From: an uncultured Deferribacteraceae bacterium
Lineage (GTDB): Bacteria > Chrysiogenota > Deferribacteres > Deferribacterales > Mucispirillaceae
Direction of reading: 5' to 3'
NCBI GenBank assembly: GCA_947041165.1
Contig: CAMRCY010000024.1
Span: forward strand, 1 to 33,415
DNA length: 33,415 bases
Part shown: positions 6,784 through 30,803 of the stretch, piece by piece
How the letters are laid out: each line of letters begins with the position of its first letter
How positions within the stretch are numbered: the stretch's first letter is position 1
The notes under the pieces: generated by a model
Seen by the model: only the letters and a program-made list of their open reading frames with translations
The model's database searches: none
Told to the model about the DNA's origin: nothing
Program-made: the position numbers and the translations under genes

Positions 6784-7269
6784 TTATTCCTCTTTTTTCT
6801 CTGGTTTAAATAATATATTTACCCTGCTATCAGTACCCTTATCTATTAAGATTTTATTCTCTTCATAATAGACCGTCATCTTATCGCCCTCTAAAAGGTT
6901 ATCGGCCTGCCAAACTTTTACCCCACCTTGTAGAGTTATAACTTTTAATTTCTCATCAAGCTCAGCTGTTGCTGCAGTCGCTATTATATCATCCGTTTTA
7001 AAGTTGACGTTACCATCACTAACTATCTTCCATATAGTTAAATTATCATCCAATAAAACAGTTACTGTATCTGATGTTAAATTGAACGTATCATTAAATG
7101 AGATCACATTGCCACTAAATACCGAACGCTTATCTTTACCGAAATATTTCATACTATCAGCTTGAACACGAATAGGAGTATTTACAATCTCATTTGCATT
7201 CACATCAACTGACAAAGTTGTTAACAAAAAGATTATTAATAACTTTATTGCTATATATTTATTATTCAT
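6784..7269 (-). CDS. lptA: LPS export periplasmic bridge protein LptA
   Basis: LptA forms the periplasmic bridge that carries LPS from LptC to LptD. The 161-residue protein has a signal peptide (MNNKYIAIKLLIIFLLTTLS, then VDVNANEIV) and an OstA-type beta-jellyroll: PIRVQADSMKYFGKDKRSVFSGNV at the start, and later ATAAELDEKLKVITLQGGVKVWQ and GDKMTVYYEENKILI. The length is normal for the family. Its start overlaps the end of lptC by 8 bp. Confidence 0.93.
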   Translation of the reverse strand: MNNKYIAIKLLIIFLLTTLSVDVNANEIVNTPIRVQADSMKYFGKDKRSVFSGNVISFNDTFNLTSDTVTVLLDDNLTIWKIVSDGNVNFKTDDIIATAATAELDEKLKVITLQGGVKVWQADNLLEGDKMTVYYEENKILIDKGTDSRVNILFKPEKKEE

Positions 7270-8104
7270 TAAGTGTTACATTATCTCCATTCAAAGCCAC
7301 ATCATTACTATCTAATGTTGCATTGTCTACATCAAGAGTTGTACTATCGCTATCTGATGTTGCGTTATCTACATCTAAAGTTGTATTGTCGCTATCTAAT
7401 GTTGCATTGTCTACATCAAGAGTTGTACTATCGCTATCTATTGTTGCATTGTTACTATCTGATATTGTATTGCCTACATCTATAGTAGTATTGTCGCTAT
7501 CTAATGTTGCATTATCTACATCTAAAGTTGCATTATCACTATTAGATAAAATCACAGGTTCTGAATAATTTACAACAACATTATCCTTAAAGTAAAAAAA
7601 ATCATTTACACTATCAAAAAATACTGAATCAGAGTAGATCATATTCTTCCCCTGTTTCACCTCTAAACCATTCAAAATTGAACCCTTACTTGTTTCATAA
7701 TTATAAACAATATTGCCATCTTTCTTGGTTGTGAAATCTAAGTCGTTTAATGATCCATTTAAGTTTCCTGTCGCTTCAAGAATTTTATTAATTGTGTAAC
7801 TGCCTCTCTCTGCCTCTGCATCAACTTTAATTTTATTATTCTTAAAACTGATATCTATATCTTCTAACTTAAACCTATTTGCTATTATATCTGCATAAGC
7901 TAAATCTGAAATAATCCTAATAAATGAATTCTCTTCATTTAGATAACCGTAATCAAGTCCTGTGATAATTAACTTGTTCGATTCAATAGCTGTTATAAAA
8001 CTCATATTTGCAGTATCTTCTCTCAATATAACAATAACAATATTAACTGTGAGTGTTATAAATAGAAAAACAAAAAGTATAGTCCTTAATCGAACTTTTT
8101 TCAT
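7262..8104 (-). CDS. lptC: LPS export protein LptC with a C-terminal heptapeptide-repeat tail
   Basis: LptC is a bitopic inner-membrane protein that passes LPS from LptBFG to LptA. Residues 1-28 give the membrane anchor (KKVRLRTILFVFLF and on), and about residues 35-189 form the jellyroll domain with GLDYGYLNEENSF, AERGSYTINKIL and SDSVFFDSVNDFFYFKDNV. That accounts for a normal-length LptC. Residues 190-280 are 13 exact-length heptads of the type DNATLDV / DNATLDS, acidic and rich in Asn-x-Thr. I know of no LptC with such a tail. The assignment rests on position between kdsD and lptA, topology and domain pattern; the overall sequence is divergent. Confidence 0.85.
   Translation of the reverse strand: MKKVRLRTILFVFLFITLTVNIVIVILREDTANMSFITAIESNKLIITGLDYGYLNEENSFIRIISDLAYADIIANRFKLEDIDISFKNNKIKVDAEAERGSYTINKILEATGNLNGSLNDLDFTTKKDGNIVYNYETSKGSILNGLEVKQGKNMIYSDSVFFDSVNDFFYFKDNVVVNYSEPVILSNSDNATLDVDNATLDSDNTTIDVGNTISDSNNATIDSDSTTLDVDNATLDSDNTTLDVDNATSDSDSTTLDVDNATLDSNDVALNGDNVTLNE
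7265..7537 (-). repeat. Coding minisatellite: 13 heptad (21-bp) repeats in lptC
   Basis: The 273 bases encode 13 heptads, residues 190-280, ending at the last codon of lptC. Position 7 of the heptad tends to alternate Val and Ser, so the larger repeat is 14 residues (42 bp). All changes keep the frame and length. The final heptads, NDVALNG and DNVTLNE, are the most divergent. The last codons overlap the lptA start. Confidence 0.95.
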
Positions 8105-8146: not shown

Positions 8147-9118
8147 CTAAATAATACCTTGCACTAATATATCTTGGAAATGTATTAATCCTACTAAATG
8201 AGTATCAACATCTACCACAAATAATGTAGTTATCTTATGTTTCTCCATCAACATCATAGCCGTTGCAACAAGCTCAGTTGATGAAATGATTTTAGGAGAT
8301 ACAGTCATAATATCTTCAACACTTTTTGCAGTATTTAAAATATTGCTACCAGCTGCTCGTCTTATATCACCATCTGTAATTATACCGATTAATTTCTGAT
8401 CAGTATCAAGAACTGCCGTACAACCGAAACCTTTCTCATTTATCATATTAACACCAACATCAACAGATGAGTTATAATTGACAATAGGTAGGTCATCCCC
8501 TGTACGCATAATATCTGAAACTTTTATTAATAACTTTTTACCTAAACTGCCTGATGGATGAAATTTGAGAAAATCCTCAGCCTTAAATCCTCGTTTTTCA
8601 ACAAGCGCTACAGCTATTGCATCACCCAAAGCTAATGCTACTGTTGTTGATGATGTCGGTGCTAAATTAAGCGAACATGCCTCTTTCTCCACCGTTGCAT
8701 CAATTACTATATCAGCAAATTTTGCAAGTGTTGAGTTTATATTGCCTACGATTGATATGAGTGTTACATCAAACCTTTTGATCGTTGGTAGAAGAGATTT
8801 AATCTCCTCCGTTTCGCCACTGTTTGATAACATTATAACAATGTCACCCTTAACAATCATCCCTAAGTCACCGTGCATACCTTCTGCTGGATGAAGAAAA
8901 AATGATGGAGTTCCTGTTGATGCTAATGTTGCTGCAATCTTTTTTGCTATCTGTCCCGACTTGCCGATACCTATCACAACTACCCTGCCTGAACAGTTAT
9001 AAATTGCATCTACTGCATCTATAAACGAATTAGATAATTTCGACTTCACTAAAATTAATGCGTCGATCTCTATCTGTAAAGTTTCTTGTCCAATTTTTAA
9101 TATATCTTTTTTATCCAT
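8147..9118 (-). CDS. kdsD: Arabinose-5-phosphate isomerase
   Basis: KdsD converts ribulose-5-phosphate to arabinose-5-phosphate, the first committed step to KDO. The 323-residue protein has an N-terminal SIS sugar-isomerase domain (VVVIGIGKSGQIAKKIAATL at about residues 47-66, PAEGMHGDLGMI, then SNSGETEEI) and two C-terminal CBS domains (DIMRTGDDLPIV and DIMTVSPKIISS, each with a GIITDGDIRR or GLIHFQDIL ending). This is the full KdsD/GutQ architecture. The next gene downstream is lptC, 42 bp away; kdsC, often between them, is absent. Confidence 0.95.
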   Translation of the reverse strand: MDKKDILKIGQETLQIEIDALILVKSKLSNSFIDAVDAIYNCSGRVVVIGIGKSGQIAKKIAATLASTGTPSFFLHPAEGMHGDLGMIVKGDIVIMLSNSGETEEIKSLLPTIKRFDVTLISIVGNINSTLAKFADIVIDATVEKEACSLNLAPTSSTTVALALGDAIAVALVEKRGFKAEDFLKFHPSGSLGKKLLIKVSDIMRTGDDLPIVNYNSSVDVGVNMINEKGFGCTAVLDTDQKLIGIITDGDIRRAAGSNILNTAKSVEDIMTVSPKIISSTELVATAMMLMEKHKITTLFVVDVDTHLVGLIHFQDILVQGII

Positions 9119-9160
9119 TCAACTTCTATACCTTTTTAGTTTATATTATTAATTTTTTCT

Positions 9161-9266
9161 ATAACAACTTCAAGCACACTTGAAATATATTTAACTTATA
9201 TCATCAACTGTTTTCAGAACAATTTCTAACTTATTTGAAACATATTTAACTTATATCATCAGGTTG
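9161..9266. repeat. Direct duplication including the 3' end of pyrG
   Basis: About 50 bp around the pyrG stop (9216-9266) recurs imperfectly at 9161-9210, with a 55-bp step. Both copies share TTAACTTATATCATCA, which on the minus strand reads DDIS plus stop in pyrG. The downstream copy is a ghost of the gene end. Confidence 0.8.
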
Positions 9267-10868
9267 TTTACTAAGTTTATACTCATGACACGCCTTCACA
9301 TATGAAGTGAAAAGCTTATGTGGTGCAAATGGTTTTGAAGTAAATTCTGGATGAAATTGTGTTACAACAAACCACCTATGTGATTTAATCTCCATGATAT
9401 CTATTAGGTCACAATCAACTGATTTACCAGATACAATCATTCCATTCTGTTCAAGTTGATCTCTATAAACATTGTTTACTTCTAACCTATGTCTATGTCG
9501 TTCTAAAACTATATCATCTTCATAAATCATTTTTGCAAGCGTGTTATCAATTAGTTTAGTCTTATACCCACCTAAACGCATCGTTGCTCCAAGCTCTATA
9601 TCGTAGCAATCATTATGTTGGTAATCAATAACTAACTCTTTAGAGTCAATATCATCTGATTCAGCGAGTGTTGCATTTTTAATCTTTAAAACATTTCTTG
9701 AATATTCAACAACAGCTGCACACATTCCAAGCCCTATACCTAAAAATGGAATATCTGTCATACGTGCAAAATTTGCTGCAATGATTTTTCCTTCAACACC
9801 TCTTTCACCAAATCCACCTGGTACTAATATACCATCTAGATCAGTAAAAAAATCTGTTACCTGTTCACTTGTTTCTAATGCTTCTGCATCTATCCACTTT
9901 ATCTCAACCTTTAACTCGTTCGGTAATCCACCGTGAAGTAATGCCTCTTTCAATGATATATACGCATCTTTTGTACCAAGATATTTACCAACTATTCCGA
10001 TCTTAACGGTATCTTTTGGTTGCTTGATACGGCGTACAATATCTTGCCATACAGATAAATCAACCTCTCTATCTGGTAGATTTAATTTCTGCAATACAAC
10101 CGAATCCATTCGCTCTTCATTAAGCACTAACGGAACTTGATATATAGTATTTAAATCTATACATGAAATAACTGCATTCTCATCAACATTACAAAATAGT
10201 GATAACTTCTTTCTAATCTCACTATCAAGAGGATACTCACTTCTGCATACTAAAATATCTGGAGAAATACCGATCTCTTGTAAACGTCTAACCGAGTGTT
10301 GAGTTGGTTTTGTTTTAAGCTCTAACGCTGATTTAATATACGGTATAAGTGTTACATGAATGTATAAAATATCATCATAATTATCTAGCTTCATCTGTCT
10401 GATAGCTTCTAAAAATGGTAACCCTTCTATATCGCCTGCTGTTCCACCGATCTCAACCATAACTATATCGTAGCCTTCATTATCTGAACATATATTCAAC
10501 TTTATCTCATCTGTGATATGAGGAATAACCTGTACTGTCCCACCTTCATAATCACCATTACGCTCTTTCTCCAAAACATTATAAAATATTTTACCAGATG
10601 TGATATCTGAACTCTTATTCGTTTTGCTGTTTAGAAATCTCTCGTAATGTCCTAAATCTAAATCGCCCTCGCCACCATCTTCTGTAACGAAAACCTCTCC
10701 ATGCTGTAATGGACTCATAGTACCTGATGCATAATTTAAGTATGGATCAAACTTTTTTATCTTTACTTTATAATTACGTAACTCTAACAATGATGATAAC
10801 GATGACGCAGTTATCCCTTTGCCTAATGATGATAAAACTCCACCCGTGATAAATATATATTTACACAT
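9246..10868 (-). CDS. pyrG: CTP synthase, with the glutaminase nucleophile cysteine replaced
   Basis: PyrG aminates UTP to CTP using ATP and ammonia released from glutamine. Length (540) and layout are normal: synthetase domain from ITGGVLSSLGKG (residues 7-18) to about 270, glutaminase domain from about 285. The glutaminase motif normally GICLGMQ reads GIGLGMC here. Gly379 (codon GGG, 9732-9734) takes the place of the catalytic Cys379 of the E. coli enzyme, while the His and Glu of the triad remain (TQFHPEF, His506 and Glu508). In the synthetase domain the usual NVDPGTMSP reads NYASGTMSP and DGAETDLDLG reads DGGEGDLDLG; the metal-binding aspartates are kept. I expect ammonia-dependent activity only. 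It is 6 bp from kdsB, whose CMP-KDO reaction uses CTP. Confidence 0.95.
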   Translation of the reverse strand: MCKYIFITGGVLSSLGKGITASSLSSLLELRNYKVKIKKFDPYLNYASGTMSPLQHGEVFVTEDGGEGDLDLGHYERFLNSKTNKSSDITSGKIFYNVLEKERNGDYEGGTVQVIPHITDEIKLNICSDNEGYDIVMVEIGGTAGDIEGLPFLEAIRQMKLDNYDDILYIHVTLIPYIKSALELKTKPTQHSVRRLQEIGISPDILVCRSEYPLDSEIRKKLSLFCNVDENAVISCIDLNTIYQVPLVLNEERMDSVVLQKLNLPDREVDLSVWQDIVRRIKQPKDTVKIGIVGKYLGTKDAYISLKEALLHGGLPNELKVEIKWIDAEALETSEQVTDFFTDLDGILVPGGFGERGVEGKIIAANFARMTDIPFLGIGLGMCAAVVEYSRNVLKIKNATLAESDDIDSKELVIDYQHNDCYDIELGATMRLGGYKTKLIDNTLAKMIYEDDIVLERHRHRLEVNNVYRDQLEQNGMIVSGKSVDCDLIDIMEIKSHRWFVVTQFHPEFTSKPFAPHKLFTSYVKACHEYKLSKQPDDIS

Positions 10869-10874
10869 ATCTAT

Positions 10875-11612
10875 TTACTTACCTCTTATACTTTTTGAAT
10901 ACTTATTTGCTATAATCAAATCTTCTTCCGTGTCTACCGAAATAGGATTGTAATCAGTCTTTATAACCTTGATATTATGCCCGCTCTCTAACACTCGTAA
11001 CTGTTCTAAATTTTCTGATATCTCTAACGATGTGCGTGGAAGTGATAATATCCAAAATAAAAAATCTCTACGATAACCGTAAATACCGATATGCTTATAA
11101 TATGATACGCCTTCAATATTATCTCTATTATATGGTATAACCGATCTTGAAAAATATAAAGCAATGTTATGTATATCAAATATAACCTTAACATATGATG
11201 GATTACTTACATCATTTATATCTTTAAATAATGTCGCAGCTGTGATCATCTTGAAATTGCTACTATCAACCTCTAACTCATCTATAAGTTGATCTATAAG
11301 TTTGTAATCTATAAACGGCTCATCTGATTGTAAGTTTATAATAACGTCATCGTTGATACTTTTTGCAATTGATGCAACTCGATCTGTTCCTGTTGGGATT
11401 TCTGAACTAGTTAAAACAGTTGAAACCTCTTTGATATCTTTAAACAGATTAAGCACTTCTTCTGAATCACTCGTAACGATAACCTTGTCAGCTTTAGATT
11501 GAACAGCCTGCATAGCCGTTAAAACAACCATCGGAACACCATCAATTAATGCTAAAACTTTTGCAGGAAATCTCGTCGATCCTATCCGTGCTGGAATAAT
11601 CACTGCACTCAT
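10875..11612 (-). CDS. kdsB: CMP-KDO synthetase
   Basis: KdsB activates KDO with CTP to CMP-KDO for addition to lipid A. The 245-residue protein begins with the nucleotide-binding PARIGSTRFPAK (residues 7-18) and carries NLQSDEPFID (canonical NVQGDEP), YFSRSVIPYNRD and YKHIGIYGYRRDFL, all diagnostic of the family. LEISENLEQLRVLESG with a final SVDTEEDL matches the C-terminal part. It is upstream of pyrG with a 6-bp gap, so CTP supply and use are coupled in one transcript. Confidence 0.96.
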   Translation of the reverse strand: MSAVIIPARIGSTRFPAKVLALIDGVPMVVLTAMQAVQSKADKVIVTSDSEEVLNLFKDIKEVSTVLTSSEIPTGTDRVASIAKSINDDVIINLQSDEPFIDYKLIDQLIDELEVDSSNFKMITAATLFKDINDVSNPSYVKVIFDIHNIALYFSRSVIPYNRDNIEGVSYYKHIGIYGYRRDFLFWILSLPRTSLEISENLEQLRVLESGHNIKVIKTDYNPISVDTEEDLIIANKYSKSIRGK

Positions 11613-28656: not shown

Positions 28657-29232
28657 ATGATTATCAGAAAAATGGCTACCCTCTTGATTACAATTTTAGT
28701 TTTATCGTTATCTATCTCTTGTGCTAGCAAAGAGGTTATCGCTGTTCAAAATGCTGATAGTATATTAAGTGGATTGATAGAACCTGATAACAATACTAGC
28801 GTTGTCAATCTGACAAACAAAGAGATAGTCAGCAATATATTTAAGCGTGTGAAATGGAAAGAAAAAACTGAAGATAATGGAACAAAATATATCTATGCAA
28901 CAGGGAAATTTATAGATATCGAACAAGCTAAAAAAAACGCATATCTAACTCAACTGTTTTTTATGGTGATCACCTCTATTAGAAGGATAGATTGGGATCA
29001 AGCTGATCCGATAATGTATTTAAAATATATGATCGGTATAAAAAAAACTGTTGATGATCTTTTTCTACTAGGCGATACTAGCAGAGGAATATTTAAGTTT
29101 AATGAAAGTGGTGAGATTATAGAACCTAAAGAGAAATCACTGTTGTTCAACTTTTACGTTTTTATCGGATATAGTATCGCCCTAACTGGTATTGATAAAG
29201 TGCTTGAACTTCCGATAATAGATAATTTCTGA
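28657..29232 (+). CDS. Lipoprotein of a local three-member family, member A
   Basis: The 191-residue protein has an N-terminal lipoprotein signal, with Cys22 in LSISCASKE after a hydrophobic core. I do not recognise the family. Members A, B and C share a mid-section T(N)..IV..I...W......DNGTKYI.ATGK..D...AKK.A (here about residues 50-92) and an ending F.FN..VFIGYSIALTGIDK.L.LP.ID. The latter is hydrophobic enough to be a membrane-associated or buried helix. GGGG lies upstream of the ATG. The product is presumably anchored in the inner or outer membrane. No enzyme motif is visible. Confidence 0.85.
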   Translation: MIIRKMATLLITILVLSLSISCASKEVIAVQNADSILSGLIEPDNNTSVVNLTNKEIVSNIFKRVKWKEKTEDNGTKYIYATGKFIDIEQAKKNAYLTQLFFMVITSIRRIDWDQADPIMYLKYMIGIKKTVDDLFLLGDTSRGIFKFNESGEIIEPKEKSLLFNFYVFIGYSIALTGIDKVLELPIIDNF

Positions 29233-29373: not shown

Positions 29374-29964
29374 ATGATTACAAAAAGAATAGTTACAATT
29401 TCATGTATAACTTTAATCTCTTATTTCTTGATATCTTGTGCTGGTAAAGACATCTCTACAACTAAAAATGCAAATACTTTTTTGATAGAAACTACAAGTA
29501 AAAATGGTCTTATAGATGTAGCAGATGTAGTAAATGTTACAAATGAAACAATAGTTAACACTATATTAACTGATGTTGTATGGACACAAAACAAGGCAGA
29601 TGATGGAACTAAACAGATAAAGGCAACTGGAAAATATAAAGATTTAGAACTTGCAAAAAAACATGCTGCACTTGCTCTAATCTTTGTTACAGCTAAGGGA
29701 ACTAAAGAGTGGAGTCCAGAAGATGGAGAAGTTAGTGAAAAAGCACTCTCAGCTGCAAAAGAAGCTGTAAGTCACTTTTTTGACGAATCTGACATAAATA
29801 ACTCTAATATAAAAGAGGTTACTTTTAAGTTCAGTATTGATGGTACTTTTAAAGCTTCTAGAAGTAGGTTATATTTTTTCAACTCTCTAGTTTTCATCGG
29901 ATATAGCATCGCTCTAACGGGTATTGATAAAGAGTTAGGACTTCCTACAATAGATACTTTCTGA
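29374..29964 (+). CDS. Lipoprotein of the local three-member family, member B
   Basis: The 196-residue protein has a good lipobox, LISC at Cys22 (FLISCAGKD). It shares with member A the segment VVNVTNETIVNTIL, DDGTKQIKATGKYKDLELAKKHA and the ending SLVFIGYSIALTGIDKELGLP. The region between (about 105-150) is variable and lysine/glutamate-rich. AGGAG precedes the ATG. It lies 141 bp after A, with repeat-like DNA between, so cotranscription is possible but not certain. Function unknown. Confidence 0.87.
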   Translation: MITKRIVTISCITLISYFLISCAGKDISTTKNANTFLIETTSKNGLIDVADVVNVTNETIVNTILTDVVWTQNKADDGTKQIKATGKYKDLELAKKHAALALIFVTAKGTKEWSPEDGEVSEKALSAAKEAVSHFFDESDINNSNIKEVTFKFSIDGTFKASRSRLYFFNSLVFIGYSIALTGIDKELGLPTIDTF

Positions 29965-30224: not shown

Positions 30225-30803
30225 ATGAAAAAAATAGTCACTAACGTCTTAATCTTAACCTTACTTTTATTCTCTGTTGCCTGCACTAGTCAAGAAGTTC
30301 TAAACGTGCAAAAAGCTTTAACTATTCCTGAAGAAAAACTAAACTCACTTAAAAAAATAACAGATAATATGAGTGATGTTGTTCCTGTTACTAACGAAAC
30401 TGTAATTAATAAAATTATTAAAAACAGTAAATGGAAAGTAGTTAAAATTGATAACGATACTAAATATGTACAGGTTACTGGAAAATATATCGATGTGAAA
30501 CAAGCTGAAAAATATGCATACCTACCTCCTTTATATATAATGAAGCTTGCGAACAAAGTTAACGGTGGTGATAATCAATCTACTGTCGACAATAATCAAC
30601 TTATCCAGATAAAAGAAACTGTTGCTATCTATCTTACATTTGCAAATACTGATAAAGCTGTATTTATGTTTACTATGGATGGCAAATTGATAGAAATGAA
30701 AGATCAATCAACTATATTTAACTCACTAGTTTTTGGTGGATATGTTATAGAGCTTTCTGGTATAGGCAAAACATTAAACATTCTTACCGTTGATAAATTG
30801 TAG
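30225..30803 (+). CDS. Lipoprotein of the local three-member family, member C
   Basis: The 192-residue protein has a signal sequence and lipobox with Cys20 (LLFSVACTSQE). It shares VPVTNETVINKII, then W and NDTKYVQVTGKYIDVKQAEKYAYL, and the end FNSLVFGGYVIELSGIGK.L with members A and B, but is the most divergent of the three. GGAG lies 9 bases before the ATG. Like the others it is presumably a membrane-anchored protein exposed to the periplasm or surface. Function unknown. Confidence 0.87.
   Translation: MKKIVTNVLILTLLLFSVACTSQEVLNVQKALTIPEEKLNSLKKITDNMSDVVPVTNETVINKIIKNSKWKVVKIDNDTKYVQVTGKYIDVKQAEKYAYLPPLYIMKLANKVNGGDNQSTVDNNQLIQIKETVAIYLTFANTDKAVFMFTMDGKLIEMKDQSTIFNSLVFGGYVIELSGIGKTLNILTVDKL

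Follow-up and report, generated by a model that had tools for sequence, protein, structure and literature searches.

Gene content of the window and the glutaminase triad of PyrG1

The stretch of DNA analysed here (the window, 33,415 nucleotides) is one entire contig (G000:C24) of a 2.14 Mb genome, 98.6% complete in 70 contigs. Among named genomes, those closest to it are MAGs of uncultured Deferribacteraceae, with 90-94% identity at the protein level. The window encodes a CTP synthase, PyrG1, with glycine in place of the catalytic cysteine of the glutaminase domain; the gene, its neighbors and the sites discussed below are as follows.

10875..11612, minus strand: kdsB, for the CTP-consuming CMP-Kdo synthetase, immediately upstream of pyrG1 (profile search)
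9246..10868, minus strand: pyrG1, full-length two-domain CTP synthase of 540 aa (PF06418 + PF00117; TIGR00337), native and vertically inherited
10077..10868, minus strand: synthetase (amidoligase) domain, tested ATP/UTP/Mg and tunnel residues intact (alignment; dN/dS about 0.04)
10725..10736, minus strand: loop NYAS (E. coli NVDP, 46-49), ahead of the ammonia-tunnel residues, with D48 changed to Ala (alignment)
10545..10547, minus strand: Glu at the E. coli L109 position, in the L4 loop of GTP coupling (alignment; role of L109 from PMC9138612)
9288..10007, minus strand: glutaminase-like domain, fold kept, nucleophile lost (AlphaFold2 model; dN/dS 0.08-0.11)
9732..9734, minus strand: codon 379, GGG, Gly at the catalytic Cys position (E. 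coli C379); the motif reads GIGLGMC (alignment)
9720..9722, minus strand: Cys383 (E. coli Q383 position), not conserved as a replacement nucleophile (alignment)
9570..9590, minus strand: GTP-activation motif GGTMRLG changed to GATMRLG, G437A (alignment; motif from PMC9138612)
9345..9353, minus strand: His506 (9351-9353) and Glu508 (9345-9347), the remaining triad members (E. coli H515, E517)
8147..9118, minus strand: kdsD/kpsF, arabinose-5-phosphate isomerase, downstream of pyrG1 (profile search)

PyrG1 scores far above the profile cut-offs, with 732 bits against 463 for TIGR00337, which identifies it as a CTP synthase, and 760 bits against 308 for NF003792. Of the Cys-His-Glu triad of a class I amidotransferase it has the histidine and the glutamate, with Gly at 379. 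A first-pass annotation of this DNA had noted the Cys-to-Gly change in GIGLGMC, the intact His506 and Glu508, and a cysteine at 383 lying off the nucleophile elbow; reading of the open reading frame and the alignment confirm each of these, and an AlphaFold2 model of PyrG1 (mean pLDDT 88.9, pTM 0.90) keeps strand 375-378, Gly379 and helix 380-392, with residue 383 inside the helix that follows the elbow. Residue 383 is C/C/S/C within the window's genus, H in g2 and Q in g3, the other two genera of the family, and Cys383 was rejected as a replacement nucleophile on this lack of conservation.

The argument that a single base-call error could not explain Gly379 also holds, as three congeneric species (90-94% identical) encode this residue by GGA, compared with GGG in the window; this rules out a sequencing or assembly error at codon 379 and indicates that Gly379 is fixed, with a later synonymous change. 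Alignment of the motif across close relatives, proposed in the same annotation, reveals Gly throughout the genus and Ser (TCN) in the family's remaining 10 native copies (one from g2, nine from g3). None of the 14 native family copies, drawn from three genera, has Cys379 (Gly, n = 4; Ser, n = 10), a loss of the nucleophile from a retained glutaminase domain that is fixed clade-wide, as in a CPS1-like enzyme. All nine g3 copies additionally carry H515C and the oxyanion-hole change G351A (E. coli numbering). In a comparison of 146 distinct PyrGs, the native copies of this family and one Bacteroidaceae clade are alone in lacking triad residues. The family-wide loss of Cys, the loss of His515 and the oxyanion Gly in g3, and the convergence of a second clade together lend good support to the prediction that PyrG1 would be unable to hydrolyse glutamine.

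Residues lost and retained in the two domains

We compared PyrG1 with 126 distinct PyrGs that have an intact triad, with an E. coli row as a ruler only, in which C379, D72, E140, H515 and E517 match published numbers and the C-terminal tail is unreliable. The P-loop, K18, K40, D72, E140, K187, K189, K223 and D240 are unchanged in PyrG1, as are residues 14-19, 40, 42, 70, 72, 140, 187, 189, 192 and 223, which places it with CTP synthases in this respect, and tunnel residues 51, 52, 54 and 56-60; of the catalytic and substrate residues tested in the synthetase domain, none is altered in any of the 14 native family copies. Losses in the family among 116 invariant positions are concentrated in the glutaminase domain (9/41, vs 3/74 in the synthetase domain; Fisher P = 0.008). 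The GTP motif GGTMRLG reads GATMRLG or GASMRLG in family PyrG1, and L109 is Glu in the window's genus.

Just three positions, D48, C379 and E499, are lost throughout the 14 family copies. D48 is present in 126/126 PyrGs with an intact triad and absent in 20/20 dead ones, a correlation that rests on two origins, as the 20 represent two evolutionary events; the corresponding overlap for C379 and H515 is partly circular because these residues define the classes, which is not the case for D48. The L2 segment (50-58), which D48 directly precedes, forms the ammonia tunnel and contacts GTP (PMC8325340). Two loops of the synthetase domain had been singled out as unusual in the first-pass annotation: NYASGTMSP stands, in view of the invariance of D48 in the 126 intact enzymes, and DGGEGD was downgraded as evidence, since position 69 varies (T or A) in normal PyrGs. 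Eukaryotic CTP synthases have GGE at the DGGEGD position as well.

The dN/dS of PyrG1 is about 0.04 in the synthetase domain and 0.08-0.11 in the glutaminase domain, about as in a second CTP synthase of the same genome, PyrG2 (0.03 and 0.09, respectively), which indicates that both domains of PyrG1 are maintained under purifying selection.

Vertical origin of PyrG1 and a second CTP synthase

In a phylogenetic tree, PyrG1 forms a monophyletic group with the copies of other Deferribacterales families, where pyrG is single-copy in nearly all genomes and has Cys in every copy examined. The operon cdaA-ybbR-glmM-pdxJ-acpS-kdsB-pyrG-[kdsA]-kdsD-...-lptB-rpoN-hpf is shared by the window, G005 and three further Deferribacterales families; beyond the window, genes were named by sequence similarity and location, with profile searches for a subset of them. 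Tree and gene order indicate that PyrG1 is the native family copy in an ancestral kds/lpt operon. The kdsA gene, which separates pyrG from kdsD in the order's other families, is absent from this operon both in the window (8147-10868) and in G005. Elsewhere in the window, tandem repeats of periods 21 to 105 (7308-7542) occupy the C-terminal part of an LptC-like ORF (7262-8104) and encode a repetitive DNATLDSDNTTLDVDN tail, and three successive small lipoprotein-like ORFs on the plus strand (28657-29232, 29374-29964 and 30225-30803) resemble paralogues.

The search for a second pyrG that had been recommended is positive. At G000:C6:52755-54335, between guaA and glmS, lies a gene encoding a protein 49% identical to PyrG1 with a complete triad (GICLGMQ / QFHPEF). 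This PyrG2 accompanies PyrG1 in 13/14 family genomes, the exception being G008 (96% complete), and is present in every family genome at least 75% complete other than G008; neither protein was detected in G014 (57% complete). The occurrence of the pair in all genera of the family rules out MAG contamination as the source of PyrG2. PyrG2 places outside Deferribacterales, beside single-copy proteins of the f66 family (61% identity) and then Bacteroidota, and by this placement is a horizontally acquired xenologue. It is presumably a glutamine-using CTP synthase, in which case the cell need not depend on ammonia for CTP, and PyrG1, with PyrG2 alongside, may be dispensable or specialised. The earlier proposal that the cell needs an ammonia-rich habitat or a second source of amide nitrogen is thus incomplete as stated; it gains from the missing carA of the genus and from the Bacteroidaceae parallel, both described below.

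Other amidotransferases and carbamoyl phosphate synthesis

GuaA, PyrG1, PyrG2 and HisH are the only PF00117 matches in the window genome, and GuaA, HisH and GlmS keep their cysteines, which rules out a genome-wide loss of glutamine amidotransfer. We find no carA, encoding the glutaminase subunit of carbamoyl phosphate synthetase (CPS), in 4/4 genomes of the window's genus; the gene does occur in g2, in g3 and in the remaining families tested. All four genomes have carB, in G002 with one copy divided across contigs. In g2 and g3, one CarB adjoins CarA and another stands alone, and the window's genus retains the lone type only (G000:C21:5940-9083; L197 5871-9149), where it adjoins a YeiH-like exporter gene. 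Since a pyrR-pyrB-pyrC operon and argF are present in G000, as judged by sequence resemblance, carbamoyl phosphate apparently forms there with no CarA involved. Of the two amidation steps, the first looks to use ammonia alone in the window's genus, and the second appears to exist in both versions.

A long, type III-like glutamine synthetase gene lies just upstream of carA-carB in g2 and g3, and a second glutamine synthetase gene lies beside the lone carB in g2 (loci near carA-carB or lone carB: L202 1539-3677, L204 1126-3258 and L200 2050-4233). The long form is the only glutamine synthetase detected in g3, which from this feature is probably Mucispirillum, a type III glutamine synthetase having been reported for Mucispirillum schaedleri (PMC5285517). 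Against the ammonia reading, added ammonium did not raise the growth of Mucispirillum schaedleri, in an experiment that measured something other than CTP synthesis (PMC5285517).

A parallel in Bacteroidaceae

The loci matched by the window protein include Bacteroidaceae MAGs (L108-L110) from cattle and water buffalo gut. In one Bacteroidaceae clade, six genomes have a triad-deficient PyrG as the only full copy detected, a provisional count as genome completeness was not given. These proteins show H515 to Tyr, E517 to Gln, R468 to His and D48 to Asn, together with a broken GTP motif; Cys379 is Gly in four of the six distinct sequences, and L108 and L110 keep Cys and are without His and Glu. CarA is dead as well in 4/4 clade genomes that have carA (GICMGNQ to GIGLG[CN]Q, QFHPEA to QFAPEA) and is encoded next to a full-length CarB. 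Canonical CarA is found in five other Bacteroidaceae. Within the clade, PurL keeps GICNGCQ in one genome, and PurF, encoded upstream of carA, keeps Cys in the two genomes where it is readable. The genomes and loci with dead PyrG and CarA are G061, G115, G134 and G182, and L109, L148-L150 and L244-L247; PyrG and CarA are both triad-deficient at L109 (5001-6575), L148-L150 and L244-L247. The sequences indicate that triad loss in this clade is independent of that in the Deferribacterota family, and the clade is possibly a cleaner case of ammonia-dependent pyrimidine synthesis. In other Bacteroidaceae (G076, G100, G125, G143, G172 and G175), the PyrG alignment is interrupted near 124-130 and the frames are longer (564-630 aa), which suggests an in-frame insert in the synthetase domain.

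Discussion

Cytosine is held to be made de novo through CTP synthase alone, and the enzyme is regarded as a glutamine enzyme under GTP control. We consider it likely that PyrG1 is a natural ammonia-only CTP synthase with a structural glutaminase domain, its loss of glutaminase function being tied to PyrG2 and forming part of a shift to ammonia. PyrG1 would phosphorylate UTP with ATP and aminate the intermediate using free cytosolic NH3, and the glutaminase-like domain would be kept as a structural part of the protein that hydrolyses no glutamine. This loss would have followed, or been permitted by, the horizontal gain of PyrG2 before the family diversified, and the pyrimidine pathway as a whole would have shifted toward ammonia, the same genus having dropped carA and making carbamoyl phosphate with a lone CarB. 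Which nitrogen donor PyrG1 actually uses, that it cannot act as a glutaminase, and in which order the events took place are inferred from sequence comparison.

Activity with NH3 and not with glutamine would be expected by analogy with E. coli mutants: CTP synthase can use exogenous NH3 directly, the glutaminase-dead variant G352P has lost all use of glutamine and retains almost full activity with NH4Cl, and GTP binding seals the tunnel and blocks the entry of external NH3 (PMC9138612). The pattern of loss at the nucleophile and the GTP site fits such an enzyme, because one that works with external NH3 only would need neither nucleophile nor GTP gating. From the known biochemistry of CTP synthase, PyrG1 would depend on free ammonia, and since CTP synthase as a rule binds NH3 poorly at neutral pH, an ammonia-only enzyme would need high ammonium.

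We weighed several other readings of the same data. PyrG1 might work only in mixed tetramers in which PyrG2 provides the glutaminase and PyrG1 the synthetase sites or L4 loops, as CTP synthase is a tetramer whose L4 loop reaches the GTP cleft of a neighbour (PMC9138612). The two copies are retained together in 13/14 family genomes with the native copy, and the coupling residues D107 and L109, gone from PyrG2, are largely kept by PyrG1 of g2 and g3 (D107 as Glu). Complementation between L4 loops was initially attractive and was weakened when the nearest outside relatives of PyrG2 (G229, G372 and G503, one pyrG each) proved to be already without Leu109, so that this loss predates the pairing. 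With PyrG1 and PyrG2 just 49% identical, PyrG1 found alone in G008, the Bacteroidaceae clade managing on a dead PyrG alone, and the ammonia tunnels of CTP synthase staying within one protomer, we regard mixed tetramers as improbable. We assign a similarly low probability to the idea that PyrG1 no longer makes CTP and serves as a regulator, filament scaffold or moonlighting protein; a canonical PyrG2 could supply CTP without PyrG1, and bacterial CTP synthases are able to form filaments, but the tested synthetase residues are intact in 14/14 copies in a domain with a dN/dS of about 0.04, and PyrG1 stays in an operon with kdsB, whose product consumes CTP. Filaments are documented for the E. coli enzyme (PMC11211670).

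That glutamine hydrolysis persists through another residue, Cys383 in the genus or Cys515 or Ser379 in g3, seems very improbable to us. There is indeed a cysteine four residues away in the window PyrG1, and g3 has Ser379 plus Cys at the His position; against this, residue 383 is Ser in the congener L005 and His or Gln elsewhere, it sits in the helix after the elbow and not at its tip in the AlphaFold2 model, g3 is without the base His, and residues of the oxyanion and GTP sites are degrading too. We hold it equally remote that PyrG1 is simply redundant and decaying into a pseudogene, with no particular role for ammonia. The glutaminase domain did evolve somewhat faster on the family stem (rate 0.449, vs 0.178 in the synthetase domain; a ratio of 2.5, vs 1.65 in the rest of the order), but none of the 14 genomes has an interrupted reading frame, both domains show dN/dS values far under 1, and PyrG1 has persisted from a time before the divergence of the three genera.

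PyrG1 remains close to canonical PyrG (TIGR00337, EC 6.3.4.2) in its two-domain architecture, operon position and synthetase site, and is about 60-64% identical to Cys-bearing orthologues in most other families of the order; it differs in lacking the nucleophilic Cys379 and in alterations to D48, G437 and other glutaminase or GTP-site residues. Mammalian CPS1 similarly retains a class I glutaminase domain without Cys, and human CPS1, with Ser294 at this position, keeps the domain and is ammonia-only (PMC4655335). The synthetase part of CPS1 is, however, a different enzyme and fold, and CPS1 has an acetylglutamate switch, for which no equivalent is known in PyrG1; frog CPS1 keeps the triad yet is unable to use glutamine, and L108 and L110 PyrGs likewise keep Cys, without His and Glu. 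In the NAD synthetase family (NadE), too, glutamine-using and ammonia-using forms exist as distinct types and have passed from lineage to lineage (PMC3376133), but in single-domain NadE the glutaminase domain is absent rather than disabled, and the ammonia form is thought ancestral. A further likeness is the Bacteroidaceae clade, which has independently lost triad residues in PyrG (Y515, Q517 and mostly G379) together with D48 and GTP-site residues; that clade has one detected pyrG and a carA retained in a dead form, in contrast to the two pyrG genes and missing carA of the window's genus.

Whether two unrelated gut-associated lineages independently converted the amide steps of carbamoyl phosphate and CTP synthesis from glutamine to free ammonia is, in our judgement, an evenly balanced question, and the same balance applies to the part of this reading in which loss of D48 and GTP-site residues would be a repeatable signature of the glutamine-to-ammonia switch in CTP synthase. 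We found no description of a natural glutaminase-dead CTP synthase in the open-licence literature searched. If the interpretation is true, naturally dead yet selected forms, with two or more separate origins, would stand among CTP synthases as mammalian CPS1 does among carbamoyl phosphate synthetases, and would offer natural variants for probing the control of ammonia entry by GTP and by the L2 loop, D48 included. The glutaminase site of CTP synthase is a drug target (DON, acivicin class), and glutaminase-dead PyrGs would be expected to resist glutamine-analogue inhibitors. The data suggest that parts of nucleotide synthesis have moved from glutamine to free ammonia more than once, and glutaminase-dead PyrGs would point to ammonia as a direct source of nucleotide nitrogen in gut bacteria.
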